From IMG/VR virus record IMGVR_UViG_3300010166_000004, positions 1 to 22,064 of that record: DNA of 22,064 nucleotides; one strand, 5' to 3'. Source of the stretch: a virus. A program made the translations under genes and the position numbers. Shown here in pieces: positions 5,321 through 22,064 of this stretch; the stretch's first letter is position 1; each line of letters begins with the position of its first letter. The notes beneath the pieces were generated by a model. The model was not told the DNA's origin and ran no database searches. It saw only the letters and a program-made list of their open reading frames with translations.

Positions 5321-5866
5321 TCAGTACCCGAATGAGTACTGGTAGTAGTTGGTCAGCAGATCGTGAACTGCTCTCTCATTATCCTCTCTATCGTAAAACT
5401 CCTGAACCTTTAACCGGATTGCTTGCTTGAGAGGGCCAGGCGCTTCGGCTGGAGAAGCATAGCCTGCCACAAACGTAACGCGAACAGCATTCACAGCAGA
5501 CAACGTTGCTGGCCAAGCCTCACTCGGAAAGATCCAAGCATTCAAGCTGACATTGTCCAGATAGTAGTCAACTGGGTCAACTTCTGCCTCCAAGCCATCA
5601 GTGCCATCATACGCGATACTGACCACTTCCTGTACAGGGCTGAATGGCAACTTTATCTCAGCAGCAGGAAATTCGTCGATCACAAATTCCCAAGTTTGTG
5701 AAGCTATTTTTTGTTGTACCCGACGCTCGACCCAAGCCCTCGCATCAGCAATGTATCGCTGTAGCTTGGCGTCATCGTCTGTATGACTAATGCGCAAATC
5801 TGCCTTGATCTCCGCCAAGGTGATAGGCTCAACAGTCGGTTCAGTTGTGACTAACCTAGTGCCCAT
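5321..5866 (-). CDS. Head-tail connector protein (gp6-like, phiE125 gp8 type)
   Basis: This 181-residue protein contains LVTTEPTVEPITLAEIKADL, the helical DDDAKLQRYIADARAWVERR, then WEFVIDEFPAAEIKLPFSPV and VRVTFVAGYASPAEAPGPLK, ending in a helical QAIRLKVQEFYDREDNERAV segment. The order 'p.......v.lee.K..LRi...ddD..l..yI.aAr..ve.....' then 'l...P...v.si.Yd.....' and 'v.yvaGY' is characteristic of head-tail connectors that dock on the portal. The ATG at 5866 lies inside the end of the giant repeat gene (16-base overlap), so the connector cluster is translationally linked to the fibre block. A weak AAGG is seen upstream. Confidence 0.9.
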   Translation of the reverse strand: MGTRLVTTEPTVEPITLAEIKADLRISHTDDDAKLQRYIADARAWVERRVQQKIASQTWEFVIDEFPAAEIKLPFSPVQEVVSIAYDGTDGLEAEVDPVDYYLDNVSLNAWIFPSEAWPATLSAVNAVRVTFVAGYASPAEAPGPLKQAIRLKVQEFYDREDNERAVHDLLTNYYQYSFGY

Positions 5867-8800
5867 GGTCGAGTGCCTTCCGATCTAACTGCTGGGCGTT
5901 CTGATGGAGTGTAATCCTCAGAGCGTGTACGAGCAAACGTCGTCCTGCGAAACACCCCATACTGAATGATCGCGGCAAAGACTGGCAAGGGTGTGGTCTG
6001 AACTGCGGCTCCACGAAGTGTGATCTTGACCAGATTGGTCGGCGTATTGGCGGGAGTGACTTGGACAATCGAGAAACCGACGCTTTCCCTAGCGGCAGCA
6101 ACTTGGACTGGCAAGGCAGTGGTTTGGGCCGCTGCCAGGTCTTTCTTGAACTCTGGTAGTAAAGCTGTCGCAACTTGAATAGGAACGGTGGTGGTTTGGG
6201 CCGCTGCAGCCGCCACCCGTATCGTCTCTGTCGCCACTTGAATCGGCAGAGGCGTAGTTTGACCAGTACTGAGATTGACGCCTGGTAGTGGCAGCGTTGC
6301 TGATGCGGTCTGAGTCGGAACTGTCGTCGTTTGAGTAGCTGTCGCCGAAACGCGAACTGTTTCTGTCGCTGTTTGAGCGGGCAGCGAGGTCGTTTGAACT
6401 GCGACCGCGTTAAGGCCTGGTATGATAATTGTACCAGTCGCGGTCTGCGCAGGCAGCGCGGTAGCTTGAGCCGCCACCGCCGATACCACATCGACCTGTG
6501 TCGCCGTCTGCGTAGGAAGCGCCGTAGCTTGTGTAGCAGAAGCAGCAACCCGAACCGTCTCGGTCGCGGTCTGGGTCGGCAGCGCTGTCGTTTGGGCTGC
6601 AGAAGCAGCAACCCGAACCGTCTCGGTCGCGGTCTGGGTCGGCAGCGGCGTCGTCTGACCTGTAGTAAAGTTGAGGCCAGTAAGAGGAAGCGTCGCGGTC
6701 GCAGTTTGGGTTGGTAGTGCTGAAGTCTGAGTAGCAGTACCCGAGACGCGAACCGTCTCTGTGGCTACCTGAGTCGGCAGCGCGGTTGTTTGAGCCGCAG
6801 TAACTGCAACTAGAACTGTTTCGGTAGCGGTTTGAGTCGATAGCGCGGTCGTTTGAGCCGCAGTAGCTGAAACCCGAACCGTCTCAGTAGCTGTTTGTGT
6901 CGGCAGCGGAGTAGTCTGAGCCGCAGCAGCATTGACCACTGCGCTGGGAATTGTTCCAGTCGCAGTTTGAGTAGGTAGTGGCGTAGTCTGAACAGCCGCG
7001 TGGTTGACCAGAAGAATTTCCGATCCAACCTGAGTCGGCAGCGCGGTTGTTTGTATAGCAGCAGCTGAGACGCGAGCTGATGCTGCCGCCGTCTGAGTCG
7101 GTAGTGCGGTTATGCCTACGCCAGGCTGTGCGACGACAACATTGTCAATCGTTCCACTAAAGACTTGAGTATCAGCCTCAAGCGAGAACGCTGTATTGAT
7201 CGCAGTAAATGAACCGGTCTTAGTTCCATTGAAAACGCCAAAAGGTCCGACAACAACATCATCAGCATTATTAGTAGGATGATTGCTGATACGCAGACCA
7301 GACCCACTCGACACGGTCATGTCGAACGAGTAATTGTAGAGAATGCCAATTTGCAAACAGTTCGTCTGCGTTAAGAACTTCGTGCCACCAGAAGCAGTCG
7401 CAACACCACCAGAAATAGTTGTGCCGGTACCCTTGACCCACTCAGTATCAGAGTCAAAGGTTCCATTGCGAATGGCATTCAGAGCGGCAGCGACTATACC
7501 GACAATGGCTCTAGCTGTCGCAGTCTGTGTCGGCAGCGCTGTCGTTTGAGTTGCTGTAGCATTTACCGCTGTAACCGGTATCGTGCTTGTAGCAGTTTGC
7601 GTTGGTAACGCTGTTGTTTGCGTCGCTGTAGCACTAACCGCTGTGACAGGTACTGTCCCTGTTGCTGTCTGTGTCGGCAGCTCAGTGGTTTGTGAAGCTG
7701 TGGCGTTTGTTACCACCCCACCTAGGGGTGCTGTTAGTGCCTGCAGCTCGGCGTTGGATTTGCGCGTGGAGAAGAACTGGAAGCTCTTGATCCAAGAATT
7801 GTGCTGGAAGCTGGGGTCCCCCCCAATGCCCCCGAGAGATGCTCTATCAGGCGCTTGAGGTGTGTAAGCGTCGACCGCCGTGTAAACTGTGCCCCCATTC
7901 GCAACCGCCGCCCGATCATTGCTCCTATAAGCCACCGCCACCTTATGCGGCCCTAAGGTTACGAAGCTTCCAGCCCCTGTGTTCAATTCGGATAGCGCCC
8001 CAGAGAGGAGCACGTCAAACCGCCCGACTGTCCCAGAACCCCTTAGGTAGATGCCTTCAGTCGCCGCCGCATTGTGCGCAGCGAAAATATACGGGTTGCT
8101 AGCAACCATGACCCCGAGGGTCATGAAGCGCGCCGCGACGACAACGCTCCCTTCTGGTTGATTGAACCAGGACGAGAAATTCGTCCCGGTCATCATCGCG
8201 ATGTCAAGTGCGCGCGTGACAGCAGTAGTCGTCGTCGGAATATATGAGGTGGGAAAGGCGCCAAGTTCAACCTGGGCACCCCAAATGTCAATGCTACCGA
8301 TTAGAGCAGTATCGGTATCATTGCTACCATCCACCGGAAACCGTGTGTCGACCACATGAATGTTGCAATCACCACTGTTCGTAAATACACCAGTTAATAC
8401 AAAACGCTGCCACTGAGACGTTAGATTATATTTTTGTCCAACTCCAGTATTCCATGCGAAAGAATTGTTTGAATTCATGCGGAACTTGGTAGCGCCGCCG
8501 CTGGCACTACTCTTAGCCCACAAAGTCAAAGTATAGATTGCACCTGCACTAAAGGTGCCAGAATGATGCCAGAGTAACGCATCACCAGCAGCTAGGACAT
8601 TTACAGTTCGACCTGTGTTAGTGCCATCAGGGGCTGTAACAGTACCTCCGAGTGTAACTGCCTCTTTCAACCACGAGCCATCTGCAAAATCTTGGGATCG
8701 TGGTTGTATATTCGTCCGCTGCTCCTCAATCAGCAACCCGCGAGACTCATGCGTTACCGGATCATGGTCGAAGCGCGGGCCGTAGTAGGCTGAAGCACTA

Positions 8801-10191
8801 GTAGGATTATAAGAAGATGGTACGAGGCTTTCAGTAGCCTCAACTTGCCAACCAAAGAATTCAACATCCCCTGTTGATGCCGACACAAGGTCCCATTGAG
8901 GACCAGCTTCAAACTGAACCTGTCCCGCCGCCAAAGACGGAAAACTAAGAGCGAATTTTCGCCATGATGTCGTTGGCGTAAATTCTCTGAACCTCGCTTG
9001 CCCTTGGATGCCACCGTCACGTAAATTCAATGAGCCTGGGTACGCATTAGAAGAAGGGTAACGCGCCCAGAATGATACAAGAAGGGTACCGCCCGGTTGT
9101 GCCGGGACAATGGCCCCGATAGATTGAGACAGCGTAGTAAAGGCGACTCTGACCGCGTTATTGCCGCCGAGAGGATCGTCAATCCCCGTCGTGAACGTCG
9201 GCCCGTTGTTTACTGACCAACCGCTACTGTCCTGAGAGTATTGCGCGAGATTATGCGGTGCATACGCCAGCTTGCCTGTGCTGTCGTATATCGTCGCCAT
9301 CGACGGGCGCGAGAAGGTGACGCGGCTATCGAGAAGCCCTGTTGTAAAATCGAGATCAAGAGATGATGTGGCAGTAAGGTCTGTCAATAAATTAGATGAA
9401 AGCTCAAACCACGAAACGACAGCTTGATTGTATGCTTCTACAGTACCCGTTGCTGCTTGAGTCGGCAGTGCTGTGGTTTGATCAGCAGTGGCTGCAACTA
9501 CTGAAACAATCGTACTTGTAGCTGTCTGTGATGGCAGCGATGTAGTCTGGATGGCGCTAGCGACAACTGCTGGACTAAAATCGGAGGTTACAACAGCCGC
9601 TGTCGCACCAGTACCAGCAATATACCAACGCGAATTGCTACCATTCGCAGCACCGGTGCCTGTGATTTCCCATTCAACCTGAACGAACAAGTATTCATTC
9701 GAGAATGTTTGCGCGCCAGGATTAACTGTGCTCGTAAATGTGAAAGTTGCCGCAGTTGAATTAAGAGTCTGACCCGCAGCAGGAACTGAAACTGCTCCAA
9801 TACGAGTCGCATTGGACCCGTCAGCCGCAGAACCTTTCCAGAGCTGAATGCGAGGACGACCAATCGCACCAGTAGTGCTTGGACGGAACGCAAGGCTGAA
9901 CGTCCAATTAGCAGAAGCAAAAACTCCGCTATATGCATTCTCAGATCGCCACGCATTACCTACGGTATTGCTTAGCGCAGTGGTCGAAAGAGGATCGGTC
10001 GTTACAAAAGTCGCGGACCCAAGCTCTGTTCCAAAATCCATAACAGCATAGCGGGTTGCTGCAAGTTTTGCAACGACCCAGCCGTGCGTTGTAGTGCCTG
10101 CTGTAATGGTCGGCGACGTGCCTTCCTGCAGCGTGCCATACTGAGTACCGCCAACGGCAGCATTGTTTAGATAGAATGATCTAGTGGCCAT
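5851..10191 (-). CDS. Giant repeat-bearing phage fibre/spike protein, 1446 residues
   Basis: Domains by residue: 1-207, a beta-rich N-terminal domain (MATRSFYLNNAAVGGTQYG...); 210-250, two copies of a Q-T-T-x-L-P-x-Q-x-A-T repeat; about 277-315, an LDLDF...DSRVTF block; about 316-490 and 495-670, two carbohydrate-binding or spike-like jelly-roll modules ending in PTSYIPTTTTAVTRALD; 678-819, a concanavalin/LamG-like region; 830-895, three more repeats; 905-1019, another jelly-roll-like module (NGTFDSDTEWVKGTG); 1025-1400, seventeen repeats; then a basic tail. No enzymatic motif is visible. Position between portal and connector, plus this architecture, suggests a virion-surface fibre that binds a receptor or glycan. 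Start ATG at 10191 has an AGGTG site and lies in the end of the cysteine-rich gene. A tail fibre role cannot be excluded. Confidence 0.85.
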   Translation of the reverse strand: MATRSFYLNNAAVGGTQYGTLQEGTSPTITAGTTTHGWVVAKLAATRYAVMDFGTELGSATFVTTDPLSTTALSNTVGNAWRSENAYSGVFASANWTFSLAFRPSTTGAIGRPRIQLWKGSAADGSNATRIGAVSVPAAGQTLNSTAATFTFTSTVNPGAQTFSNEYLFVQVEWEITGTGAANGSNSRWYIAGTGATAAVVTSDFSPAVVASAIQTTSLPSQTATSTIVSVVAATADQTTALPTQAATGTVEAYNQAVVSWFELSSNLLTDLTATSSLDLDFTTGLLDSRVTFSRPSMATIYDSTGKLAYAPHNLAQYSQDSSGWSVNNGPTFTTGIDDPLGGNNAVRVAFTTLSQSIGAIVPAQPGGTLLVSFWARYPSSNAYPGSLNLRDGGIQGQARFREFTPTTSWRKFALSFPSLAAGQVQFEAGPQWDLVSASTGDVEFFGWQVEATESLVPSSYNPTSASAYYGPRFDHDPVTHESRGLLIEEQRTNIQPRSQDFADGSWLKEAVTLGGTVTAPDGTNTGRTVNVLAAGDALLWHHSGTFSAGAIYTLTLWAKSSASGGATKFRMNSNNSFAWNTGVGQKYNLTSQWQRFVLTGVFTNSGDCNIHVVDTRFPVDGSNDTDTALIGSIDIWGAQVELGAFPTSYIPTTTTAVTRALDIAMMTGTNFSSWFNQPEGSVVVAARFMTLGVMVASNPYIFAAHNAAATEGIYLRGSGTVGRFDVLLSGALSELNTGAGSFVTLGPHKVAVAYRSNDRAAVANGGTVYTAVDAYTPQAPDRASLGGIGGDPSFQHNSWIKSFQFFSTRKSNAELQALTAPLGGVVTNATASQTTELPTQTATGTVPVTAVSATATQTTALPTQTATSTIPVTAVNATATQTTALPTQTATARAIVGIVAAALNAIRNGTFDSDTEWVKGTGTTISGGVATASGGTKFLTQTNCLQIGILYNYSFDMTVSSGSGLRISNHPTNNADDVVVGPFGVFNGTKTGSFTAINTAFSLEADTQVFSGTIDNVVVAQPGVGITALPTQTAAASARVSAAAIQTTALPTQVGSEILLVNHAAVQTTPLPTQTATGTIPSAVVNAAAAQTTPLPTQTATETVRVSATAAQTTALSTQTATETVLVAVTAAQTTALPTQVATETVRVSGTATQTSALPTQTATATLPLTGLNFTTGQTTPLPTQTATETVRVAASAAQTTALPTQTATETVRVAASATQATALPTQTATQVDVVSAVAAQATALPAQTATGTIIIPGLNAVAVQTTSLPAQTATETVRVSATATQTTTVPTQTASATLPLPGVNLSTGQTTPLPIQVATETIRVAAAAAQTTTVPIQVATALLPEFKKDLAAAQTTALPVQVAAARESVGFSIVQVTPANTPTNLVKITLRGAAVQTTPLPVFAAIIQYGVFRRTTFARTRSEDYTPSERPAVRSEGTRPWALG
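5975..7115 (-). repeat. Protein-coding repeat array, 17 copies of a Q-T-T-x-L-P-T-Q-T-A-T unit
   Basis: This is the C-terminal array of the giant gene. The consensus unit is A-Q-T-T-A-L-P-T-Q-T-A-T-E-T-V-R-V plus a short Ala/Ser linker. Spacing is mostly 21 residues (63 bases) with some longer units of about 24-28 residues where a linker such as LPLTGLNFTTG is inserted. Most copies differ at synonymous positions while keeping the amino-acid pattern. Five further copies lie earlier in the same gene, at about 9461-9555 (two) and 7510-7710 (three). Confidence 0.92.
6536..6647 (-). repeat. Recent 63-base tandem duplication inside the repeat array
   Basis: The 49 bases at 6536-6584 recur exactly at 6599-6647, an offset of 63 bases, which is one 21-residue unit. 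Neighbouring units show many synonymous changes, so this pair looks recently duplicated or converted. Confidence 0.85.
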
Positions 10192-10438
10192 CGGGCACCT
10201 CCCTGAATGAGAAGGTGCAACGCGGAAGGTGCGCTATGTTGCTCGGATGCGTTGGCCAAACGTTACACCCGAACGACCAATATGTGTCCACTGTGTTGTG
10301 GATAGAGCAAAGACGTTTGCCTGAATCTTCTTTGGCAAGATAAGGACATGCGCCGTCAGACTGCTCCGGGAGCCCATCAATTGGTCCTCGGCAGCAGTCC
10401 CCGCACATGCAGCAATATCCTTCTCTCACCCACGCCAT
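10181..10438 (-). CDS. Small nine-cysteine protein (CxxCxxCC-type cluster, YkgJ/UPF0153-like)
   Basis: This 85-residue protein has cysteines at 9, 10, 12, 15, 16, 31, 44, 58 and 74, in the pattern CC-x-C-x-x-CC ... CPYL ... CSIH ... GCNVWP ... LPRC. The CxxCxxCC-like start, followed by spaced single cysteines within short hydrophobic contexts, resembles the small metal-binding cysteine-cluster proteins related to YkgJ/UPF0153, whose biochemistry is poorly known. I chose ATG at 10438 because it overlaps the preceding stop as TAATG; an in-frame codon at 10462 would add eight residues. The gene sits between two fibre-type genes and overlaps the next start by 11 bases. Zinc or iron-sulphur binding is inferred from cysteine spacing only. 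The absence of a signal peptide fits a cytoplasmic or virion-internal role. Confidence 0.78.
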   Translation of the reverse strand: MAWVREGYCCMCGDCCRGPIDGLPEQSDGACPYLAKEDSGKRLCSIHNTVDTYWSFGCNVWPTHPSNIAHLPRCTFSFREVPDGH

Positions 10439-10896
10439 TACAGAAACTGACCACCCAACCAAACGCGAGGGGGATTTGTTATGTCTCTTGGATCCAAGAC
10501 CTGGACCCTCTGATCACCTGTGCCAAACTGATAAGCTCTGATGGTTTCTCCTCTGAATGGCAAACTGATCTGAGCACCATTGTCGCGAACAAATTTCACC
10601 AGCTTAGATCGGACGAACCGAAAGTTGCCAGTCTCACCAGGAAAGACCGCTGTGTCCAGATCATCAGCGAACCTTTGCCCAAAGAGCCGGACATTGACGC
10701 ACCACCAGGTATCAAGCACAGCTGGAGTGACGAGAACCCCTCCGGCATCGAACACAGCAGGAGTGAGAAGCACATTGCCCAACTCGTCAATCGCCACATT
10801 AGGCATTGGTGTGCCTTGAGCATCGATCAAGTTGCGGTTGACTCCGACAGCGAGCCATCGAGCGCGGTTGAAGCATCTAAGATAAACATCGATCAT
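10438..10896 (-). CDS. Phage protein of unknown function in the fibre block
   Basis: This 152-residue protein begins MIDVYLRCFNRARWLAVGVN. It carries a short internal duplication (NVLLTPAVFDAG then GVLVTPAVLDTW), a WWCVNVRLFG segment, and a C-terminal QVLDPRDITNPPRVWLGGQF. The ATG overlaps the stop of the 1934-residue gene (ATGA), and its stop overlaps the cysteine-rich gene (TAATG), so it is firmly part of the operon. I do not recognise a named family. The length, lack of catalytic motifs and place suggest a virion component or a fibre assembly helper, but this is a guess from context. Confidence 0.8.
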   Translation of the reverse strand: MIDVYLRCFNRARWLAVGVNRNLIDAQGTPMPNVAIDELGNVLLTPAVFDAGGVLVTPAVLDTWWCVNVRLFGQRFADDLDTAVFPGETGNFRFVRSKLVKFVRDNGAQISLPFRGETIRAYQFGTGDQRVQVLDPRDITNPPRVWLGGQFL

Positions 10897-13800
10897 CGAC
10901 TGAGACCCTGGATGATTTGACGAAGGAAGCGCTTGCGGTAGTGTGTGAGCCTCTTATAATGAGCACGAAGGATATTGTGCCCGTGACCTCCATTCATTCC
11001 AAAAGCCAACTCAGACAACCCGATCGGAGACAGAGCGCTAGTGTCTTGTACAGGCGTGGCGCCTCTCACGGACCCAATAAGACCATTTTCTCGATAACCA
11101 AACACGACATTGTGAGCAGCATTCGGAATAATTGATCCCATCGTAAATGTGGACTGAACAGCCGTTGCGGCTCTTGAATAAAATTCAACCTCATTGTTAG
11201 CTATCATAGTGGCGGTATAGCTATTGTCCTCATTGCCAGAATTAAAGGCAAAGAGTTCTCGGGCATCATACGCACCACTCTGATCCATCACGAATGAGAC
11301 TGTTCCTTCTGTACTTGTAAACCATGAGGAGAATGCGGCTCCAGATATAGTCGCAAAATCAGCGGCCCGAGTGACCGCAGAAGCAACAGTCGGGATGTAT
11401 GATGTGGCAGAAGGACTTTGTTCTAACTGAGCACCCCAAAGCCAGGCCTGTCCCCCGGACCAAAAGAAGTCCGCATCATTAAGTGATGATGCAACCTTAA
11501 CGCCATAAAAGAGACTCGCAGGTGTAAGACTTGTGGCTTGTATTCTGTACCATCCATTACCAACATAATGGATGTTGCTATCCACAATAGTGGGGCTTTT
11601 AAATCCAGCAACACCGGCTTCTAGATCAAATGATGCACCACCCTCGAAACTTGGTACACTAAAAAATATGTAATACCATTTCCAAGTCGTGCTTTGTCTC
11701 TTCACATAAATGGAAAACGTATATGGGACACTTGGCGTTATAGAGATTTGGGGGGTCGTAACATGCGTCTCAGTGGCCGCCCACACACCAATTGCATCTG
11801 CTGTGTAGGTACCATCCGGAGCGGCAGTTCCAGCATCATTGGGATAGACGGTGACATTGCCATGCACCCAGTAGCCACTCGCTGCGGAGAAGTCACTAGA
11901 GCCAGACAACAGATTAGTGGCCTGAGCCTCAATCAGCAGTCCCTTAGGCTTGTAGGCCATAGGCAGAGCTTGCGTGAGAGGCACTGTGTCAGTGGGGATG
12001 TATGGTGTATGGATTGAACCTGCTTCGAGTTGAGCACCCCAAACCAATAAACCCCGAATGCCAACAAGAGTCACACTCAGATCAGCATTTGCGACATTCA
12101 ATTGAAAACGAACAGCACCCCCAGCCCCAGGGGTGCGAGTCATAGAGCAACGGTACCAACCATTACCTACGCCTTCAATACTGGCTCTAGTGACAGTGCC
12201 TGAACCAATTGCTGCCTCTGCTGAGCCCAACACTCCATTACGAATATCATAATACTGCCTAATCTCATTGGTTCCGTCATAAGTTCCAAAGGCAAACCAA
12301 TCTGTCGTTCCATCATACTTGACATACACTGACCAAGTATGAGGGATGATTGCTACGCCTATACCAGCTATGTAAGCATTTGCTGTTCCACCATTGCCCT
12401 CTATTCGATCCGCCGTCAAAGTACCATCTGGAGCAATTGCTACATTTGCTGTTCTAGCTCCAGCATCAGATGCCCACGTAGCTCCGGCCATATCCTGAGA
12501 TTTGGTTAGCAGGTTCCTCGCAAACGTCTCTGGCGGAGGAGGAGCCTCATCGTAGGCGAACTGTAAGGGGAACCCGTTGTATTGACCTTCACCTGTCTTC
12601 TTAGTGTACTCATTCGGGCCATAACCAAGCTCAATTTGAGCGCCCCAATGGTATCTCGTGCGCCCGATTGCTGTGTTCGGGTCTAAATCTGCGCTCGCAC
12701 TATGGATGTAGAACCTCGTGGCATTGTCTCCGCCGATCCAGCTAGCTGTGATAGATATGCGCCACCATCCATTTCCCACATCAGTGATCTTTGAATTTAT
12801 GTGAACTGCAAACTCTGCAATCGCCGACCCAAGTGTACCAGTACCCAGATTGAACCACTGACGGACCCTAGAATTACCATTATCATTCAAGACCATGACA
12901 ATCCAGTCATGATTACAACGTTTTACATAAATCGACCCTGTGTTGGTATTATATCCATGCCCAATTCTGGACATGACCGCCGGAATCAGAGTACAAGCAC
13001 CGCCTCCGGCAGCGGTCTCTGTGAGCAGCGTTCCGTTGCTTGCTCCATTAGGAGCAGTGGTGGCATTGACTGTGAGGGTCGTATTATTGGCACCCCAATC
13101 GCCACCAGTGAAGTTCTCACTGTCGCCGTAAATGATATTCTTAACTGAATACGCCTTGCGCGCACTGCGCTTGAAGGTAGCGGGGCGTGTGAGATAACCG
13201 CTTCCTGTGACAATGAGCGGCGTGGGCCCTGTATTAGGACCCTGTGACAGTTCCAGCTGTCCACCCCACACATAGAGACCCGACGTGCCATCACCAGCAT
13301 AAATGTCTCTATCTGGTGAAGGACCCGCTATGTCAGTCCTGGCCACGAACACGCCGAGGGTAATTCCACCCAAACCTAGCTGACTTGTTACTGAGCAGCG
13401 ATACCAGCCATTCCCCACATTCTCCATAGTGGGGGGATACCCGGCATATTGATTGGTTCCAGGACCGACGCCCAGAACCCCATTACCTAGATCAAACGTG
13501 TATGCTGTAGCCTGAAGGATTACAGTGGCAAATGTCCTCTCAGCCGCCTTCAGATAGAACGACCCACAGTAATAATTATCGGGAGTAGTTATACCAGATT
13601 GATAAGGACCATGCGAGTCGTTGTCTGTGGTGTCGATTATCTTGTCTGCCGTCAAGGTTCCATCTGGTGCTATTGTAGCATTTGTCGTGACTGTGACTCT
13701 CGCAAGAGCCCAAAAATCAAACTCATTAGCGCGGATTATGAGATTGCGGGCAGCCGGCACAGCCAGGTCGCCGCTGTGAGGATCATAGTCGAAGCGCGGA

Positions 13801-16697
13801 CCATAATAGGCAGAGCCAGTGGCTGCGTAGAATGCTCGAGGAGCTTTCTCGTAGGTGACCCTCTCAATTTGAAACTGAGTGAAATAAGACGTGGCGCCTG
13901 CTACAGCATCCAACTCAGGTAGAACATCTTTAGCCCATGACAAACCAACGTCTAACCGATCCCCGACAATTGCCTCAACGGCGAGGCTAATACGATACCA
14001 GCCGTCATTGTCAGCCGTCATAATTGCGGTAGCAGTACCAATTAACAAATCGACTAGGCCAGTATCAAGATTAAAAAACCCGAGATTGTCTACCCCACCG
14101 AATGAGTCATTAACACCGAACCTAACGTACTTTGTAGGAGTCGATCCACCCTTCTTGACATATATTGAAACAACATAATTTCCCTTGCCAAGGCCAGCGT
14201 AGCCGACATCTACCCGGGGCCTCAACTCGCCAGAAGTAGCGCCTGTCATAAGAGTTGCAGACATTAATCCACTAGGACCGCGAGTCGCATTGTGAGTAAT
14301 AGTGCCATTAACTTGACCGGTCCACCAGTTATTGGCAAAAACCTCAACTGCTAAATTATTCGGCCCATAGGTCACTTTGCCATTGCTGTCGATGACCATG
14401 CCTATAGAAGATCGCGTATTCACCACGCGAGGATCGAGCTTCCCACCCATATTGGTAAAGTCCAGATCCAACCTCTTGGAGGTGAGGAACTGGAGCATGC
14501 GGTCGGACGGCTTGTGGTTGAATAGTTTAATGTTTCTGAAGCGACCAATACAATAATCCGTTCCTGGCGAGCTGCCGATCACCATCCTCGTAAGAGTTTG
14601 GACGGGCGTGTTGCTGGTATGCAGAGCTAAGCCACCATCTACAATTGTTCCAACATCGGGTGGACCCCAGAACATGGCAAACCCCTGACTGTTTCCAGTC
14701 AGAGGGCCTTTTCTTTGCGTAGTAGCTATACCTGTGCCGACAACGCCAATGCCAGCATCAGAAGCGCTCGTATAAATACCAAAATAATTGGCCCAGGTTT
14801 CATCATCTAAGGTCACTAAGTAGGTATCTTGTTTGGGTGGTATCGCCCCCTCAATGACAATAGCGCCGGAAACAGCGTTCAAAACAGGGAGCAAGTCTCT
14901 TGAGTAAACCTGTACACTGTCGGTTGCCCGAGTCACCTGAGTGGTAGTGGTCGGAATATACGACGTGGGTTCAAAACCAGCCTCGACTTGACCACCCCAA
15001 AACAGAATGTATTCACCGGTGGCACCAGTGATTGTCAAGTTACCAAATGCATCATACCCTGTCGTGACATCAGTCATATTCAAAACAATGTACGTACCAG
15101 TATCAGCGGCCGGGTTAAGCCACGTAACAGACAGACGCCACCAACCATTGCCAGCATTTTCTATTCTATAGCCAGTATTGGTTAATGTCGCAGCTCTCTC
15201 AGCCAGCATTGATCCAGTGTCAAGATTGACAACTATTGAATAATCCGTTCCTGAATCTCTTTGAACTTTAAGTTGGGCATAATTGCCTGAGACTCCCGCC
15301 TTCACATAAAAAGAGCAAACATGTTGAGCGTTAGTCAGGGATGGATTTCCACCGGCACCTGAGCTAGCGGCAGCATTAAGATTAGAACCAGTGGCATTTA
15401 AGGCCAATTTCTTGGCATCATTCGTACCGTCCGGAGCTACTCCTTGATTAGTTGTAACAGTTCCAGCACTGCCACCCCCCATATTATTCCCGAGCAGCAA
15501 GTTCGTTCGCTGTGGCTCATGCAGCAGGCCGCGCGAGGCCAGGGTCACTGGGTCATGGTCAATGCGATGACCGTAGGTGAAGCCACTAGTGATATTGGGA
15601 TAGTGTACCCCAAAGGGGTTTGTGCCATCAGCAAGTTCAGTCTGAGGCCCCCACATGAGAAGACCTTTTGACGGATCACCTGCAAAGGGGTTACTGCCAT
15701 AACCAGCGTAAGGAGCACCTGACCCATCCGGCGCAAAACTTACAATGTGCCGAGTGGTCGTGCTTGGATTGGTTCCCTGAATGATGCACTTATACCAACC
15801 ATTCCCGACCGCGTTGATAGACGCATGAACCAGCGTGGCTGAACCCTCGACCCCAGTCCTATGAATAAGCCCATTCTGCAAGTCTATGATTGCGTAGTAT
15901 CCCTGAGATGGGGCATCATAACTAGCAAAACTAACAAATCGCCAGTTCAAATATTTAAGATAAACGGTGTGGGTATAAACAACTGATGCTGTTATGGTAA
16001 AATCTGGGATAAATCTATGGACATTGTTGGTCGTGCCTTGCATAATCAAGTAAGCAGTTGCTTTACCATCTGGCGCGATCTCGCCAGGCGTCACAGACAC
16101 ATCGTTCAATCCAGACGATAACGTCAACAAATCAGCACGAGGATATAGGTTCAATCCAGTGGTTCGAATAACTCCATTCTTGTCGACATAGGTGGCCGAA
16201 CTGGAACGATAGCAGCTAACGCGGCTGTCAATGGTCTGACCTGGCTTGCTGAAGTCAAGCTCCATGGTCGGCTCAGGTATCGGATTAGCGACCACACGCC
16301 CACGGAGATCAGATCTGTCAGTGATCAATGCGCGCTGCGCAGGAGACAACATCTCTGTCTTGAGGACAGGGCCAAAAGGCACATCAGGGTAGCGCCAAGA
16401 CGCTACCTCCATGTTGCCCTGCAACAGAGAGGCCTTGATATTGACAGACTCAGAATTGTTGACGGCCTTACCAACCGCGAGCTTTACGATACCATCCGAC
16501 AAGAATGATGTTGGAGTTCCCAGATTGCCCAAGCGAAACTCGGCAACCTCATTAAATCCTTGAACTGAGGATTTGATGAAGTCAGTATCGCTTTGTGTCG
16601 TCTCATCAATCGCATCGACAAGGTTTGTTCCACCAGCATTGGTAGTCCAACCGTCATCTCTGAGATCGAAGTTAGGACGAACTTTTACAAGCACCAT
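10893..16697 (-). CDS. Giant modular fibre/spike protein, 1934 residues
   Basis: After about 130 N-terminal residues (MVLVKVRPNFDLRDDGWTTN...), the protein is made of modules of about 200 residues. Each has an 'APDGT..A..l' start, a 'y.fSvYvK' strand, a 'DL.tG' strand and a 'vGNGWYR.s.t' core, then 'l.WGaQlE.g'. The GNGW-type core occurs seven times, near residues 296, 516, 897, 1093, 1307, 1510 and 1713. The wide gap between the second and third holds a LamG-like region (about 620-770), and a second LamG-like region ends the protein (about 1795-1934). These modules match what I recall as phage head spike fibre or carbohydrate-binding-like domains. LDF...DSRV and DHDPVT..SRGLL blocks also occur in the 1446-residue protein. 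No hydrolase motif is seen. ATG at 16697 has a weak GGGA site. Confidence 0.86.
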   Translation of the reverse strand: MVLVKVRPNFDLRDDGWTTNAGGTNLVDAIDETTQSDTDFIKSSVQGFNEVAEFRLGNLGTPTSFLSDGIVKLAVGKAVNNSESVNIKASLLQGNMEVASWRYPDVPFGPVLKTEMLSPAQRALITDRSDLRGRVVANPIPEPTMELDFSKPGQTIDSRVSCYRSSSATYVDKNGVIRTTGLNLYPRADLLTLSSGLNDVSVTPGEIAPDGKATAYLIMQGTTNNVHRFIPDFTITASVVYTHTVYLKYLNWRFVSFASYDAPSQGYYAIIDLQNGLIHRTGVEGSATLVHASINAVGNGWYKCIIQGTNPSTTTRHIVSFAPDGSGAPYAGYGSNPFAGDPSKGLLMWGPQTELADGTNPFGVHYPNITSGFTYGHRIDHDPVTLASRGLLHEPQRTNLLLGNNMGGGSAGTVTTNQGVAPDGTNDAKKLALNATGSNLNAAASSGAGGNPSLTNAQHVCSFYVKAGVSGNYAQLKVQRDSGTDYSIVVNLDTGSMLAERAATLTNTGYRIENAGNGWWRLSVTWLNPAADTGTYIVLNMTDVTTGYDAFGNLTITGATGEYILFWGGQVEAGFEPTSYIPTTTTQVTRATDSVQVYSRDLLPVLNAVSGAIVIEGAIPPKQDTYLVTLDDETWANYFGIYTSASDAGIGVVGTGIATTQRKGPLTGNSQGFAMFWGPPDVGTIVDGGLALHTSNTPVQTLTRMVIGSSPGTDYCIGRFRNIKLFNHKPSDRMLQFLTSKRLDLDFTNMGGKLDPRVVNTRSSIGMVIDSNGKVTYGPNNLAVEVFANNWWTGQVNGTITHNATRGPSGLMSATLMTGATSGELRPRVDVGYAGLGKGNYVVSIYVKKGGSTPTKYVRFGVNDSFGGVDNLGFFNLDTGLVDLLIGTATAIMTADNDGWYRISLAVEAIVGDRLDVGLSWAKDVLPELDAVAGATSYFTQFQIERVTYEKAPRAFYAATGSAYYGPRFDYDPHSGDLAVPAARNLIIRANEFDFWALARVTVTTNATIAPDGTLTADKIIDTTDNDSHGPYQSGITTPDNYYCGSFYLKAAERTFATVILQATAYTFDLGNGVLGVGPGTNQYAGYPPTMENVGNGWYRCSVTSQLGLGGITLGVFVARTDIAGPSPDRDIYAGDGTSGLYVWGGQLELSQGPNTGPTPLIVTGSGYLTRPATFKRSARKAYSVKNIIYGDSENFTGGDWGANNTTLTVNATTAPNGASNGTLLTETAAGGGACTLIPAVMSRIGHGYNTNTGSIYVKRCNHDWIVMVLNDNGNSRVRQWFNLGTGTLGSAIAEFAVHINSKITDVGNGWWRISITASWIGGDNATRFYIHSASADLDPNTAIGRTRYHWGAQIELGYGPNEYTKKTGEGQYNGFPLQFAYDEAPPPPETFARNLLTKSQDMAGATWASDAGARTANVAIAPDGTLTADRIEGNGGTANAYIAGIGVAIIPHTWSVYVKYDGTTDWFAFGTYDGTNEIRQYYDIRNGVLGSAEAAIGSGTVTRASIEGVGNGWYRCSMTRTPGAGGAVRFQLNVANADLSVTLVGIRGLLVWGAQLEAGSIHTPYIPTDTVPLTQALPMAYKPKGLLIEAQATNLLSGSSDFSAASGYWVHGNVTVYPNDAGTAAPDGTYTADAIGVWAATETHVTTPQISITPSVPYTFSIYVKRQSTTWKWYYIFFSVPSFEGGASFDLEAGVAGFKSPTIVDSNIHYVGNGWYRIQATSLTPASLFYGVKVASSLNDADFFWSGGQAWLWGAQLEQSPSATSYIPTVASAVTRAADFATISGAAFSSWFTSTEGTVSFVMDQSGAYDARELFAFNSGNEDNSYTATMIANNEVEFYSRAATAVQSTFTMGSIIPNAAHNVVFGYRENGLIGSVRGATPVQDTSALSPIGLSELAFGMNGGHGHNILRAHYKRLTHYRKRFLRQIIQGLSR

Positions 16698-16758
16698 TTT
16701 CCCGTCCGATAAAGGACATGAGTCTGCTCAAAGAGAAGAGCAAAAACCATTGCTGCTA

Positions 16759-17175
16759 CTAGGCGCCAGCTTCAGTGATCGCCCAACCGGTCACGTTGAC
16801 TGTCTGACCAACGGTCGTCGCCGCTGCGTTGTCGACAGTAAGATCGCCACCGCCACCCGTAGCAGTGATGGTGCCCTGCATGTGACAGGTCGTGCCATCA
16901 GAAGCATAGATGCGATAGTGACCCGGAGCCGCTGCGCCTGTCGCGGCGCCAGTTAGCGGAAGGTTATTCAACCAAGGCGAAGCTGCGCCGGCCGCAAACG
17001 CCGCTGCCCAATCTGCTGCCAGGACATAGCGAATGATTTCAGTTCCGCTGTCAGCGGTGGCAGCAGTAGCTGGTGGAGCACCAGAACGGATCGACAACCG
17101 CGCCGCCGTCCCGACAGTCGCCTCAAAAGCATTGCCGCGAGCATTACGAACAGCGACGGAAAACTGCTGTGCCAT
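16759..17175 (-). CDS. Small conserved phage virion-type protein
   Basis: This 138-residue protein begins MAQQFSVAVRNARGNAFEAT and contains RLSIRSGAPPATAATADSGT, HYRIYASDGTTCHMQGTITA and a glycine run (TGGGGDLTVDN), ending NVTGWAITEAGA. The combination 'FsvavrNa.ld.ie...g..a.L.i.sG..P' with 'fRIyda.GttchmqGtvt..GgggDltldn' is a widespread phage structural protein family; its exact place in the particle is not known to me. A clear ribosome site (AAGGAAG, about six bases before ATG at 17175) supports good expression. It precedes the 1934-residue fibre gene by 61 bases and may be a fibre base, decoration or adaptor subunit. Confidence 0.85.
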   Translation of the reverse strand: MAQQFSVAVRNARGNAFEATVGTAARLSIRSGAPPATAATADSGTEIIRYVLAADWAAAFAAGAASPWLNNLPLTGAATGAAAPGHYRIYASDGTTCHMQGTITATGGGGDLTVDNAAATTVGQTVNVTGWAITEAGA

Positions 17176-17216
17176 GTTCTACTTCCTTTCGTGTGAGCGA
17201 GGTTAGAGGCTGAGGG

Positions 17217-17459
17217 TTATTCCTCGCCCAAGGCACCCATACGCCATTCACCCTTAACGCCTTCATTCCCTGGCTGCTTCCGCTCGTCAGCAGAGAACGG
17301 ATGCCAAGTGAAATACTCGCCAGGATAGCTGCGAGAACGATAAACCCTGTTGGGCTCGTACTTCTCGCCCTTGATGTCCTCACGGAACTCCATCTTGTCT
17401 AGAGCCTTTTGACCAAAGCTCTTAGGATCAAGCTGATGAAATGCTCTGCGAACCGCCAT
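17217..17459 (-). CDS. Small phage protein of unknown function
   Basis: This 80-residue protein begins MAVRRAFHQLDPKSFGQKAL, contains KYEPNRVYRSRSYPGEYFTW and ends GEWRMGALGEE. I chose ATG at 17459, just past the collagen-like gene stop at 17461, because GAGGAG lies six bases before it. An in-frame upstream start at 17495 would add twelve residues and overlap the collagen-like gene. The protein is basic at the N-terminus with several aromatic residues; no family is recognised. It sits between the collagen-like and the conserved virion-type gene, so a role in the particle or its assembly is plausible but unproven. Confidence 0.75.
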   Translation of the reverse strand: MAVRRAFHQLDPKSFGQKALDKMEFREDIKGEKYEPNRVYRSRSYPGEYFTWHPFSADERKQPGNEGVKGEWRMGALGEE

Positions 17460-17460
17460 G

Positions 17461-18546
17461 CTAGTCTCCTCTAGTTTCGATTTGGAACTGCTCAAACAGC
17501 GCCCGCAACTCTAGCGGTTGTGCTGTCGTACCATCTGACAAGACCGGAGTTGCTACATACCGCTCAGTGTCAATGATCCAATTGGCAAACACTGGCGCAC
17601 CATCACCCTTGTCGCCTTTCAATCCACGTTGTCCGGCTTCTCCCGCCTTACCACGCTTACCGGGGCTGGCCATAAGCTGCCAGCCTGCTCCTGGTAGCTC
17701 ACCAGGTGCGTCACGTAGCGCCGTCCAAGTTCCCCCATTCCACGCCACGAGATCCATAGCGTTGTAGTCTTTCTCGGGATTGTAGGTTCCACGTATGTGC
17801 AAGCTACGCCCATCAATTCCATTCGTGCCGGGCGCGGCAATCTGAACCCAGTCATCTGTCCCCACCTCTGGCTCTTGAGCAGTATCTTTGGTGGCTTGGA
17901 AAAGCCCGCCGCGATGAGTCACAACGTCACTTTCATACCACACACCGTACTTCCATGAACGAACCGAAGGCAACTTGCCGGGTGCTCCTGGCTCGCCGCG
18001 TTCGCCGCGCTCGCCGCGTTCGCCGCGCTCACCGGAAAGACCAGGAGGGCCTTGATAGCCGGGTTCGCCGCGCTCGCCTGGCGCTCCTGCTTCTCCTGGA
18101 GGGCCGCGCTCGCCTGGCGCTCCTGCTTCTCCTGGAGGGCCGCGCTCGCCTGGCGCTCCCGGTGCTCCTGCAAGGCCGGGAGGGCCTGGCTCGCCGGGAG
18201 GGCCGGTTTCCCCTCTAATGCTCTCGCCTGGCGCTCCTGGCTCTCCTACGGGGCCGGGAGGGCCTGGCTCGCCGGGTTCGCCGCGCTCTCCATCCTTAAG
18301 AGTGGAAAGCCTCTCAATGATTCGCTTCGCGAGGTCATCTTCAAATGATCTCTTCCACTCAGCAAGGTCACGATCACGCTTCGCGTCGCGCGCCTCATAT
18401 TGTGCCTCGATTAGTTGAAGTCTCTCATCAGCCTTCGTTCTTGTATCGGCAATGACGCGCGCGAGCGCCCTTTCCAAGGCATCAATGTAAGAGGCTGAGT
18501 CCATGGAGCCGCCTGGCGATTGCTTCTGGATCGTGGTGGCTTCCAT
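17461..18546 (-). CDS. Collagen-like phage fibre protein
   Basis: This 361-residue protein has three parts. Residues 15-85 form a charged helical region ([20 protein letters not shown] ... [12 protein letters not shown]) likely to be a trimeric coiled coil. Residues 86-192 form a collagen-like stalk of 35 Gly-X-Y triplets, broken once by an Ile-Arg insert after GES. Residues 196-290 hold two short modules with [20 protein letters not shown] and [19 protein letters not shown], like the carbohydrate-binding module 5/12 type. Seven more Gly-X-Y triplets ([10 protein letters not shown]...) and a short C-terminal domain follow. Such proteins form trimeric virion fibres in other phages. The start at 18546 lies 65 bases inside the portal gene; a second in-frame ATG at 18504 is possible. 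Confidence 0.88.
17992..18159 (-). repeat. Tandem DNA repeats coding collagen triplets
   Basis: An 18-base unit occurs twice in tandem at 17992-18027 (coding GER repeats). A 36-base unit starts at 18068, 18104 and 18140, with two full copies and a third that matches for 20 bases, coding the repeated [12 protein letters not shown]. Near-identical units suggest recent expansion and a length-variable stalk. Confidence 0.88.
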
Positions 18547-19894
18547 CAGTCAATTCCCTTTTCGGCGGAACCTCTGGCGCTGGTGCAGCCGGGGCTGCTG
18601 GCGCTGGTGCCGGATCAGATGGTGGTCGAACAATAGGCGCTGGCTTCGGCGCCACCGCGTCTTTCAACGGCACAAGCTGCTGCTGGACGCGTGCATCGTC
18701 ACCACCATCGACCTCAGGCAATTCAAATTCTGAACGACCTTCGTTCGGAGTGTACAAGCCGCCCTGGATGCCGCGCACGTAAGCGTCTACGCGATCCTTG
18801 TGAGCTGAGCGCAACAACGCCTGAGTGTTAAACTCCAGATATTCGTCAGGCTGACCCTTGAGGGTGAACAACTGACCGAATGCTTCCTCGATGTGATTGA
18901 GAGCGAAGCCCAGGCCGCTGGCGATCCAAGACTGATAGAGCGCTTCTGTAGAAGCAAACGGGGTTGGACCTATGCCCAAGACCTGAAGTGGGATGCGGAA
19001 CACGAGCGCCACATGCTCGTCGGAAAGCTTCAGCAAATCAGCTAATGCGCCGTCTTTCGCCGAAGTGCCAATCATGTGCGGCTTGAGGCCGCCAGTGGCG
19101 ATAGCCGTTCCACCCGCCTTTAATCCACCACTGACCGCATCCCAAGCGTCACGTGCCTGTGTCGCTTGTTCCTTGGTCAAGATCAGATCAGTAGAGAGAA
19201 CGAAGCCAGGTTGTGCTCGGTTCAAGTAGAATGCGATCTGCTGCTGGGTCATAGCTCCACTGGCCAACACGTCTTGCGCAGCAGCCACCAAAGGGCTTTT
19301 ACCAATCAATGGATCATCCACATCAGTATGGAGCCGAATGTGAAGCACATCCCGAGACGGGATGATCAAATTGTCGAATTGCTCATCAATGACCCGGTTG
19401 CCTGACATGCGGTAGAAAACATCGCCAGTCTCTGCCACAACAGGCGTAACTGTCTTGGGGTTCATCAAATGCAATTCAGAAATTTCGTTTCGGTCATTTC
19501 TCAAAGCAAAGGCATAAGCATTACCATTAAGATAAAGTGATCGTGTGGCGTTTAACAAAAAGTCTGATATTGTTTGATAGTCATTGGGCCTACGAAGGAT
19601 GCGAGTCAAAGCGCTGAGAGGAACCCGCTCTCTGCCGCCGTTCTTCGTCGCACGCCAGTGATCGCCTGGACACATGGCGATAGTTTGTGAGTAGGCAGAC
19701 ACACAAGCTTCAACCATGGCAGTTGAGTTGCCAGGAATGGGGTCATACCCCATCTGCCACCAATTGAAGTATTTCCCGACATCCTCAGTCAGCCATCCCC
19801 CTGTGGACGGCAAATACCAAGGGCCTGGACGAGGCTGACCCTCAGTCTGGCGAACCAGACCAAGGGCCGAGCCTACACGTGTCAGAATGCCCAA
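18482..19894 (-). CDS. Portal protein (HK97 family)
   Basis: This 470-residue protein forms the dodecameric DNA channel at the head vertex. It contains [100 protein letters not shown] and [20 protein letters not shown], the usual landmarks of HK97-type portals (Phage_portal). A Pro/Ala-rich tail (about 415-445) ends the protein. The apparent start is TTG at 19894, four bases after the upstream stop, without a clear ribosome site; no better in-frame start precedes the conserved N-terminus. It lies downstream of the capsid gene, whereas in HK97-like phages it usually lies upstream of protease and capsid. Its last 65 bases overlap the collagen-like gene. Confidence 0.93.
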
Positions 19895-20319: not shown

Positions 20320-22064
20320 TTACCAGGTAACAGCCTGAGTCCAAGCCACGACACCAGCACGACGCAGGCCCCAGTTGACGTCCATGATCATCCGGAGCGC
20401 CATCGTGTCAGTCTGCCAAAGCGAACGAACCGGAGCCGCCACAGTAGCAGGCGAGCCCGCCGTACCAATGGCCAGAGGCGTGGTGTCCTCAAAGTGCAGC
20501 GTGGCCTGGTCGCTGACATCAAAGCGCGGAGCACCGCCTTCAATCGCGACAAAGTCAGCAGCATCGATAAGGATGACCATGCCCGCCGTTACAGTGGACG
20601 AGAGGATCACTGGATAGCCATTGAACCGGTTATTGTTGATCTCAGCCGCAAACGGAAAGTCGCCGCCCGCATTCTGAGTCATCGCGATAGCCAGCGCGTT
20701 GACTGGGTTCATGATCCACACCGGAGCGCGGAGGTTGCCGTTGCTCGCAGTGATCAAAGCACCAACCAGCGCCTTGAGATCGCCAACAAGCGCAGCAAAC
20801 CCACCACCAGTAGTCGCCGTCACGACTGTGATACCATTACGGATACCAGCAGGACGTGTGGCCGAAGCAGCGGTGGCATCAAGAAGCACGGTGTCAAGCG
20901 CGACAGACGTGTCCTCCTGAATGGCGTTCCGAATCAGGCCCTCAATCGCCGGAGTAGAATGCTCTGCAATCTCGCGAGTGAACGCGGAGATCACAGCCAT
21001 CTTCTTGGGAGTGAAAGTCTGAGCAGTGAACGCACCCTGCCGAACTGGGATGGGCGCGCCTTCAGCAACGAACGACCCAGCGATGGTCGGCGTAGCTGAA
21101 CGAGTGGGGATGCTGATCAGGCCAGTACGACCAAAGTTCATCCGCAAGCCACGACCAGCGAGACCAGGATAAACCGAAGCTGGCATAAGCAGCGCCATGA
21201 ACGCGGTGAACGAAGTCTCCACCAGCTGAGAGGCCCAGCCAGAAGTGGTCGTGGTCGCTGGAGCAGTAGCCGCACGAGACAGAGAGATAGCTTCAGCGAC
21301 TGACATGCCCTCTGGACGAGTGGCGACAGACGCGACAATGCGCGTACCATCGTCAATCTTGCCATCGTCACCATAACGACGAGCAATGGCCTGCTCAAGG
21401 TTGATCGGCTGACCACGCTTCGCCGAGACGAAGCAATCGACCAGACCCACCGCCGTGCGCAGCCAGTGATCCTCTGGCTTAATCGTCTGCTTGGGAACAG
21501 CAAACGGACGCGGAGCAACAGCAGAGCCCTGACGAGACTCCGCAGCAATCACTGCGCGAGCAGCAAGCTGGCCTTCCGCTGCCTTGAGCGAGTCAAGGTT
21601 GCGCTGAGCATTCGCGATGTTCGTGGTCATCTCTTCACGAACAGTGAGAGCAGCATCATCAGGCTCATCGCCCGACTCAGTAAGGTGATTGGTGAGCGCA
21701 TCACGCAGCTCATCCAGCTTAGTCGTCGCATCCTCGATGCGCTTCGAAAGAGGTTCGTTCATTGTAGGAGTTTTCCGAACAGGAGATGTAGTGCCGGACC
21801 CGGCAGTTGATCCAGGAGCTTTTGATGAGGGTGCTTCAGCTTGCTCGCCAAACACCACTCTCATAGTCTCGCCGGAGATATTCAAAGAGCGCGCAATCGC
21901 AAGTGCGTCTGGGTTCGAGCCCACACCAACGATCGACGCCTCCAAGAGTTGCTGCCGCTTGTAGTGCGGCACACCGTCGATCATCTCGGGCTTGCCCAAG
22001 GCACGAAAGCGCACTGACACAGCCTTAAGTACACCTTGCTGCACAAGGCGGATGATTTCATCAA
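20320..22064 (-). CDS. Prohead protease C-terminus fused in frame to HK97-type major capsid protein (N-terminus off window)
   Basis: The frame is open from the right edge to TAA at 20320. The first roughly 65 visible residues (DEIIRLVQQGVLKAVSVRF ... LLEASIVGVGSNPDALAIAR) match the C-terminal part of HK97-family prohead proteases. A Pro/Ser/Thr linker follows, then MNEPLSKRIEDATTKLDELR (ATG at 21762) opens a coiled-coil scaffold-like segment of about 100 residues. The capsid fold follows, with ISIPTRSATPTIAGSFVAEG, APIPVRQGAFTAQTFTPKKM, ISAFTREIAEHS, NRFNGYPVILSS and a final IMDVNWGLRRAGVVAW. There is no stop between the protease and capsid parts. The internal ATG has only a weak ribosome site, so the capsid could be released by self-cleavage or partly made by internal initiation. 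The catalytic His/Ser would lie outside the window. Confidence 0.9.
   Translation of the reverse strand, partial: DEIIRLVQQGVLKAVSVRFRALGKPEMIDGVPHYKRQQLLEASIVGVGSNPDALAIARSLNISGETMRVVFGEQAEAPSSKAPGSTAGSGTTSPVRKTPTMNEPLSKRIEDATTKLDELRDALTNHLTESGDEPDDAALTVREEMTTNIANAQRNLDSLKAAEGQLAARAVIAAESRQGSAVAPRPFAVPKQTIKPEDHWLRTAVGLVDCFVSAKRGQPINLEQAIARRYGDDGKIDDGTRIVASVATRPEGMSVAEAISLSRAATAPATTTTSGWASQLVETSFTAFMALLMPASVYPGLAGRGLRMNFGRTGLISIPTRSATPTIAGSFVAEGAPIPVRQGAFTAQTFTPKKMAVISAFTREIAEHSTPAIEGLIRNAIQEDTSVALDTVLLDATAASATRPAGIRNGITVVTATTGGGFAALVGDLKALVGALITASNGNLRAPVWIMNPVNALAIAMTQNAGGDFPFAAEINNNRFNGYPVILSSTVTAGMVILIDAADFVAIEGGAPRFDVSDQATLHFEDTTPLAIGTAGSPATVAAPVRSLWQTDTMALRMIMDVNWGLRRAGVVAWTQAVTW

Follow-up and report, generated by a model that had tools for sequence, protein, structure and literature searches.

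A putative virion adhesin cassette with an adaptor-fold protein among the head genes of an IMG/VR virus record

Introduction

Why would a phage carry giant fiber-like genes in the midst of its head genes, between the portal gene and the head-tail connector gene? The question is raised by IMG/VR virus record IMGVR_UViG_3300010166_000004, of which positions 1 to 22,064 were analyzed (the window, 22,064 bases). The recognizable genes of this record are all located on the minus strand. A block of seven open reading frames (ORFs), placed end to end or overlapping on that strand, occupies positions 5851-18546 (12,696 bp, 57.5% of the window) and encodes, in order, proteins of 361, 92, 138, 1934, 152, 93, and 1446 amino acids (aa). 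A first-pass annotation of the sequence had delimited the block between portal and connector and had noted that it fills more than half of the window; both the coordinates and the extent proved to be exact.

We propose, with a probability of roughly 0.55, that the DNA inserted at this site is a recurring virion adhesin cassette, in which the 138-aa protein (d138) serves for docking, a multivalent arm binds polysaccharide, and a cysteine-rich protein acts as a helper, with the neck or head as the likelier site on the particle. The core of the cassette consists of d138, a protein with eight cysteines, and a giant adhesin that starts with a conserved jelly-roll domain (repN), encoded in this order. 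In the window, the 1934-aa adhesin is encoded between d138 and the cysteine protein. The cassette probably helps virions to stick to cells.

Results

A three-gene core recurs in viral contigs

The 93-aa protein (10181-10462, minus strand) contains eight cysteines in the pattern W-[VI]-R-x-G-x-C-C-x-C-G-x-C-C ..., which is largely common to 22 aligned relatives, and its gene overlaps the start of the 1446-aa gene by 11 bp. The first 214 residues of the 1446-aa protein make up repN (9550-10191, minus strand), which was delimited in an alignment of 31 sequences. In viral contigs, 33 distinct cysteine proteins were found, and a repN gene was present within 150 bp downstream in 28 of the 32 non-truncated cases (26 of 30 after omission of two loci that had been fetched only through repN). 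A d138-family gene was located just upstream in 13 cases; in another six, one or two genes were interposed or the start call overlapped.

The surroundings of this triad were compared between loci (numbered with the prefix L). The locus most similar to the window is L193, with the order portal, collagen, d138, a 110-aa and a 423-aa ORF, cysteine protein, repN, three ORFs, and the connector gene gp6. This is the layout of the window from portal to gp6, except that the cargo separating d138 from the cysteine gene is different. L218 has the order portal, collagen, d138, cysteine protein, repN, and in L154 and L174 the cysteine-repN pair lies directly before gp6. In other loci, the triad follows TerL, the portal gene, and a head morphogenesis gene (L142), is located upstream of the genes for the major capsid protein (MCP) and the portal (L059/L162) or likewise upstream of the MCP gene (L149), precedes the tail sheath gene (L150), or follows gp6 and neck genes (L155). 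In two short-tail-like contigs (L145 and L153), it is found upstream of a phrog_3287 virion gene. No triad was found beside tail-tip genes, and all annotatable contexts were of the head or neck, in a set that was small and incompletely annotated; window-derived tape-measure and tail profiles found few relatives, and tail-side contexts were under-detected.

A tblastn search of 50,697 phage records matched neither the cysteine protein (two queries) nor repN (one query), which agrees with the first-pass view of a little-described system. In a search of prophages for the host, the cysteine protein was absent from the 398 genomes of a phylum-level sample, with a positive control in which the cysteine profile recovered 6 of 6 viral records, and repN was absent from the 297 genomes of an order-level sample centered on a Bradyrhizobium genome. 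PDB profile searches with the cysteine family and with repN retrieved nothing. The cysteine-repN partnership is so far undescribed.

The cysteine spacing of the 93-aa protein is like that of the PF03692 CxxCxxCC zinc/iron-chelating proteins, but the Pfam model does not match the window protein up to an E value of 1, while one of 23 family members matches with an E value of 1.3e-9. The divergent cysteine protein at L169:10007-10357, which lacks a repN neighbor, is probably this matching member; it is possibly a bridge to the cellular CxxCxxCC proteins, or else a false member.

The adjacent d138 has a predicted fiber-adaptor fold

The d138 gene (16759-17175, minus strand; phrog_3758, E 6e-17) was characterized by profile search and structure prediction. 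The d138 profile matched two solved "structural proteins" (9rkv_A, E 9.1e-9; 44nx_B, E 2e-10). An AlphaFold2 model of the monomer, with a predicted local distance difference test (pLDDT) score of 84, aligned with 9rkv_A at a VIA-align Z of 13.5 (root-mean-square deviation 2.2, 131 aa), with a neck (connector) chain of Bas63 at Z 10.2, and with the Sf14 neck chain 9c39_K at Z 10.0 (108/108 residues, 8% identity). Matches to the fiber-tail adaptor of Ralstonia phage GP4 (8jou_a, Z 6.7), A511 gp105 (6hhk_B, Z 5.7), and the phi812 arm (Z 5.7-6.7) are in a range where a match may mean a common arrangement only.

9RKV is a tail-fiber entry of the flagellotropic phage 7-7-1, and its 141-aa chain fits the garland protein gp014 (141 aa), an assignment made by length. 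The numbering of the Sf14 chain, 3-110, fits the whisker protein gp31 (110 aa), again by length. Sf14 gp30 and gp31 together form the neck whiskers, and the gp31 gene is the second after the portal gene, in the order portal-gp30-gp31. As judged from its model, d138 thus has the fiber-adaptor fold of the garland, whisker, T4 gp8, and A511 gp105 type, and the earlier suggestion that small proteins of the block may be adaptors is supported at the level of the predicted fold.

The resemblance to these systems is partial in each case. With 7-7-1 gp014, the Milano garland gp125/gp127, T4 gp8, and A511 gp105, d138 shares the fold and the character of a small protein encoded beside fiber genes. However, garland, gp8, and gp105 proteins belong to contractile-tail baseplates, whereas d138 is found in a siphovirus-type head/neck block together with a cysteine partner and a repN adhesin. 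Sf14 gp31 shares the fold and a gene position shortly after the portal, but no giant adhesin follows it, and Sf14 is contractile. The GP4 adaptor, a middling match, shares the adaptor fold family and is a small protein joined to a fiber, but it is located at the tail of a short-tailed phage.

Genes of the d138 type adjoin giant adhesins in the window, in L019-type loci, and in L142, L193, L218, and L287. In L287 (4141-12896), a d138-family gene is followed by that of a 2774-aa protein with three spike-fiber modules, a larger relative of the window pair. It sits downstream of a different portal type, as judged by resemblance to L142.

Two giant proteins carry spike-fiber modules

The 1934-aa protein (10893-16697, minus strand) contains seven stretches of NF048003, the "phage head spike fiber domain" (GTA_spike_fiber), with an E value of 4.2e-188, and it matches the RcGTA head-spike fiber Rcc01080 (6tb9_F3, phmmer E 5.4e-27). 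According to a module hidden Markov model (HMM) and alignment, the modules cover 11349-16169 and are located at 15558-16169, 14925-15521, 13782-14342, 13173-13757, 12549-13145, 11949-12530, and 11349-11933, all on the minus strand. Nine residues are invariant across the module alignment (P39, G41, Y76, K78, G107, G127, W128, Q169, and E171). In 80 other viral contigs, the number of spike modules per ORF was 1-5, so that seven is at the upper end, with a profile that was itself derived from the 1934-aa protein. The narrow profiles revealed few recognizable head or tail genes around the modules in these 80 contigs, and no general rule emerged. Ahead of the first module, the 1934-aa protein has an N-terminal domain (residues 1-176; 16170-16697, minus strand), for which a profile search found no PDB relative. 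Domains related to it are encoded in front of cysteine genes, in L161/L170 and, immediately upstream, in L174.

The 1446-aa protein (5851-10191, minus strand; phrog_5939) has one clear NF048003 module at residues 488-665 (8197-8730, minus strand; E 6.6e-40, also found with the module HMM). A pattern search revealed 16 TTALPTQTAT-type copies in all, in units of 21 or 24 residues: about 14 extend over residues of about 835-1345 (6157-7689, minus strand), and two more lie close to residues 216 and 239. At the DNA level, the gene contains tandem repeats of 63 and 72 bp. The lengths of the ORFs and these domain matches show that the block is not a chance occurrence. The first-pass proposal of proteins that bind surfaces or glycans is likewise supported, at the sequence level, by the domains of the RcGTA head-spike-fiber type.

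CocE-type esterases gave the best fold matches of repN (model pLDDT 87.5), with their C-terminal jelly rolls (Z 9-13). An enzymatic function of repN was considered and rejected, as the CocE match spans the jelly-roll part only and not the hydrolase, which indicates a shared sandwich fold.

The collagen gene is an old resident of the lineage

Which part of the block is extra was determined by comparison with portal relatives from 80 IMG/VR and 17 bacterial-genome loci (Bradyrhizobium, Mesorhizobium, Devosia, Sphingomonas, and others). ORFs were called, and the window proteins served as the source of iterated HMMs; many of the contigs are near-duplicates. The collagen-like fiber protein of the window (361 aa; 17461-18546, minus strand, overlapping the portal gene end; PF01391 E 2.4e-19, phrog_5073 tail fiber E 1.2e-32) has G-X-Y tracts of 8, 27, and 7 triplets at residues 86-109, 112-192, and 296-316, and with these triple-helix repeats it qualifies as a phage collagen-like fiber. 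Its gene lies directly after or overlaps the portal gene in 65 of 76 portal relatives, and gp6 follows directly after collagen in 64 of 69. Because the order portal-collagen-gp6 prevails among the relatives, the collagen gene is an old resident of the lineage. The block had initially been regarded as inserted in its entirety; this stands for about 11.6 kb of extra DNA (5867-17460), but the collagen gene had wrongly been counted with it. The biggest insert between collagen and gp6 in the portal-selected set was 4.1 kb (L140). The use of gp6 as bait in viral contigs yielded one distant locus only.

Eleven relatives have something between portal and collagen, and in 10 of the 11 this includes a d138-family gene followed by other ORFs (L019, L023, L025, L026, L027, L029, L040, L041, L058, and L060, several of which are near-duplicates). 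In several of these portal-collagen loci, a long fiber-like ORF follows the d138-family gene. GDSL-type esterase proteins occupy the same slot in prophages of Devosia and Sphingomonas (L136:11663-13015 and L140:12128-15253). The d138, fiber-like, and esterase cargo of the relatives suggests that the portal-collagen-gp6 stretch is a general, recurrent cargo site for surface-acting virion proteins.

Flanking genes and orphan ORFs

On the minus strand of the window, the first gene is that of MCP. It is followed by a 109-aa ORF, the portal gene, the seven-ORF block, the gene for the gp6-type connector, a 61-aa ORF, and the genes for the head closure, tail terminator, major tail, and neck/tail-completion proteins; then come a 143-aa ORF of the tail-tube family, the genes for the tape measure and the distal tail protein, and one more tail protein gene, of which only the beginning lies within the window. 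The HK97-type portal gene (18482-19894, minus strand; TIGR01537 E 3.9e-48, PF04860 E 3.7e-65) is the upstream flank of the block, and the gp6/gp8-type connector gene (5321-5866, minus strand; TIGR02215 E 1.3e-28, phrog_442 E 1.9e-30, PF05135 E 1.7e-9) is the downstream flank. In the capsid ORF at 20320-22062, the first 177 residues match a head maturation protease family, in addition to a match to a capsid family; from their sequences, protease and capsid look fused, like in relatives of 630-820 aa.

Two ORFs of the block are orphans. The 92-aa ORF (17217-17495, minus strand, TTG start) has no relative in the loci or libraries, and the 152-aa ORF (10438-10896, minus strand), which overlaps both neighbors, has no family, viral-contig, or PDB relative. 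Their position suggests that both are fiber partners specific to this phage.

Discussion

In the proposed mechanism, dimers of d138 would dock the N-terminal domains of the adhesins onto the particle. The modules together with the TTALPTQTAT repeats would form a long, flexible, and multivalent arm, and the modules would bind surface polysaccharide, so that the virion would at first attach reversibly, ahead of any engagement of the tail tip. The cysteine protein, which is probably metal-binding, may help to mature, fold, or cap the adhesin of the 1446-aa type, as suggested by the nearly constant position of its gene against the start of the adhesin gene.

Concerning the site, a whisker-like location of the adhesins on the neck or head is plausible and the more probable one. 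It is favored by the position of the cassette genes behind portal or capsid genes in several lineages that are not related to each other, and by the precedent of Sf14 with its portal-gp30-gp31 order. Several points weigh against it. In phage 7-7-1, gp014 and the long tail fiber gp015 sit at the baseplate (PMC12796354), although their genes are located just upstream of TerL-portal-MCP. The window ends inside the tail-tip genes, and ordinary tail fibers may lie beyond its end. The PHROG label of phrog_5939, the match of the 1446-aa protein, is "tail protein". RcapMu has spike modules in an annotated tail-fiber gene, and therefore the domain signals "adhesin" and not "head". Last, the RcGTA docking peptide was not found: none of the window proteins contains a (phi-G)3 motif within its first 90 residues.

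The strongest competitor, to which we would give about half the weight of a neck or head site, is that the adhesins are at the tail tip, as receptor-binding fibers with garland/adaptor proteins that are merely encoded beside head genes, as in 7-7-1. The best structural match of d138 is indeed the 7-7-1 garland gp014, which adjoins gp015 and is encoded just upstream of terminase, portal, and MCP. The related proteins T4 gp8 and A511 gp105 connect receptor-binding proteins with baseplates (PMC10811340), and the upstream position of the triad relative to the phrog_3287 gene in the short-tail-like L145 and L153 also fits a tail-tip location. However, in the siphovirus lineage the cassette lies between portal/collagen and gp6 (window, L193, and L218) or upstream of MCP (L059 and L149) and not after the tape-measure and tail-tip genes, and Sf14 has this fold in a neck whisker whose gene is portal-proximal. 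The discrepancy between gene order and baseplate products in 7-7-1 means that gene position does not decide between head and tail tip, and position alone was therefore rejected as a basis for the decision. The original idea of head fibers or head spikes is thus plausible, but the d138 fold is found both on a neck (Sf14) and at a tail tip (7-7-1).

An arrangement like the five-fold head spikes of RcGTA, with a pentameric base and a spike fiber at each capsid vertex, is improbable. The RcGTA fiber is held by its N-terminal peptide IALGLGLGL in the pentameric base (PMC7296036), and it binds capsule: the tagged protein bound fully to the wild type and to about 4% to a capsule-less mutant (PMC10218006). 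The window proteins resemble the RcGTA spikes (base Rcc01079, fiber Rcc01080) in the NF048003 domain, which is homologous to Rcc01080, in the location among head genes, and, by inference, in binding capsule-type polysaccharide (for the RcGTA spikes: PMC7296036, PMC10218006). In contrast, the RcGTA fiber has 325 aa and one module-bearing domain, compared with seven modules and 1934 aa in the window protein. The hydrophobic-glycine docking peptide is missing from the window proteins, and the best match of d138 is a different adaptor fold. Sequence searches of d138 (alone and as a profile), the 1934-aa N-terminus, and the 152-aa protein gave no match to the base Rcc01079, with the 92-aa ORF outside the PDB search and folds partly compared. 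The strict docking motif occurred in 3 of 88 spike ORFs versus 1 of 205 background ORFs; it is too rare among spike ORFs and was rejected as a marker, so that its absence says only that the window lacks it.

Hydrophobic and glycine-rich peptides that recall the RcGTA docking peptide open the spike-module proteins of four other loci (L292:5226-9056, L253:7119-9047, L266:2735-4627, and L240:7707-9041). A capsid-like gene, judged by eye, is located upstream in L253, L266, and L292. The four proteins may be genuine head spikes.

It is very unlikely that recombination at a hot spot between portal and connector maintains the giant genes as changing cargo with little function: slot contents do vary (GDSL-esterase fibers in L136 and L140, other fibers in L019 and L040) and L059 and L149 have the cassette elsewhere, but the giant genes have long intact frames with ordinary GC content at third codon positions, the gene junctions are one-base or overlapping, and the three-gene core is conserved across many distinct viruses.

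A wider and more tentative extension of the adhesin cassette proposal is that d138, the cysteine protein, and repN form a portable appendage cassette that is mounted on the head-neck by siphovirus-type, contractile-tail, and possibly short-tailed phages, and that the cysteine protein binds metal and is indispensable to the giant adhesin, which it matures or caps.

Surface-binding appendages of the head or neck are known from few particles, namely RcGTA, the head fibers of 7-7-1 and phiCbK, and the whiskers of Sf14. As a phage adhesin with an adaptor-fold protein and modules of the RcGTA type, the system is of a known kind, and the cysteine-repN partnership is its most interesting part. The phage isolates that were searched contain neither the cysteine protein nor repN. 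A compact three-gene cassette that moves between unrelated phages would make such appendages traceable by sequence, and it would also test how giant adhesins are docked.

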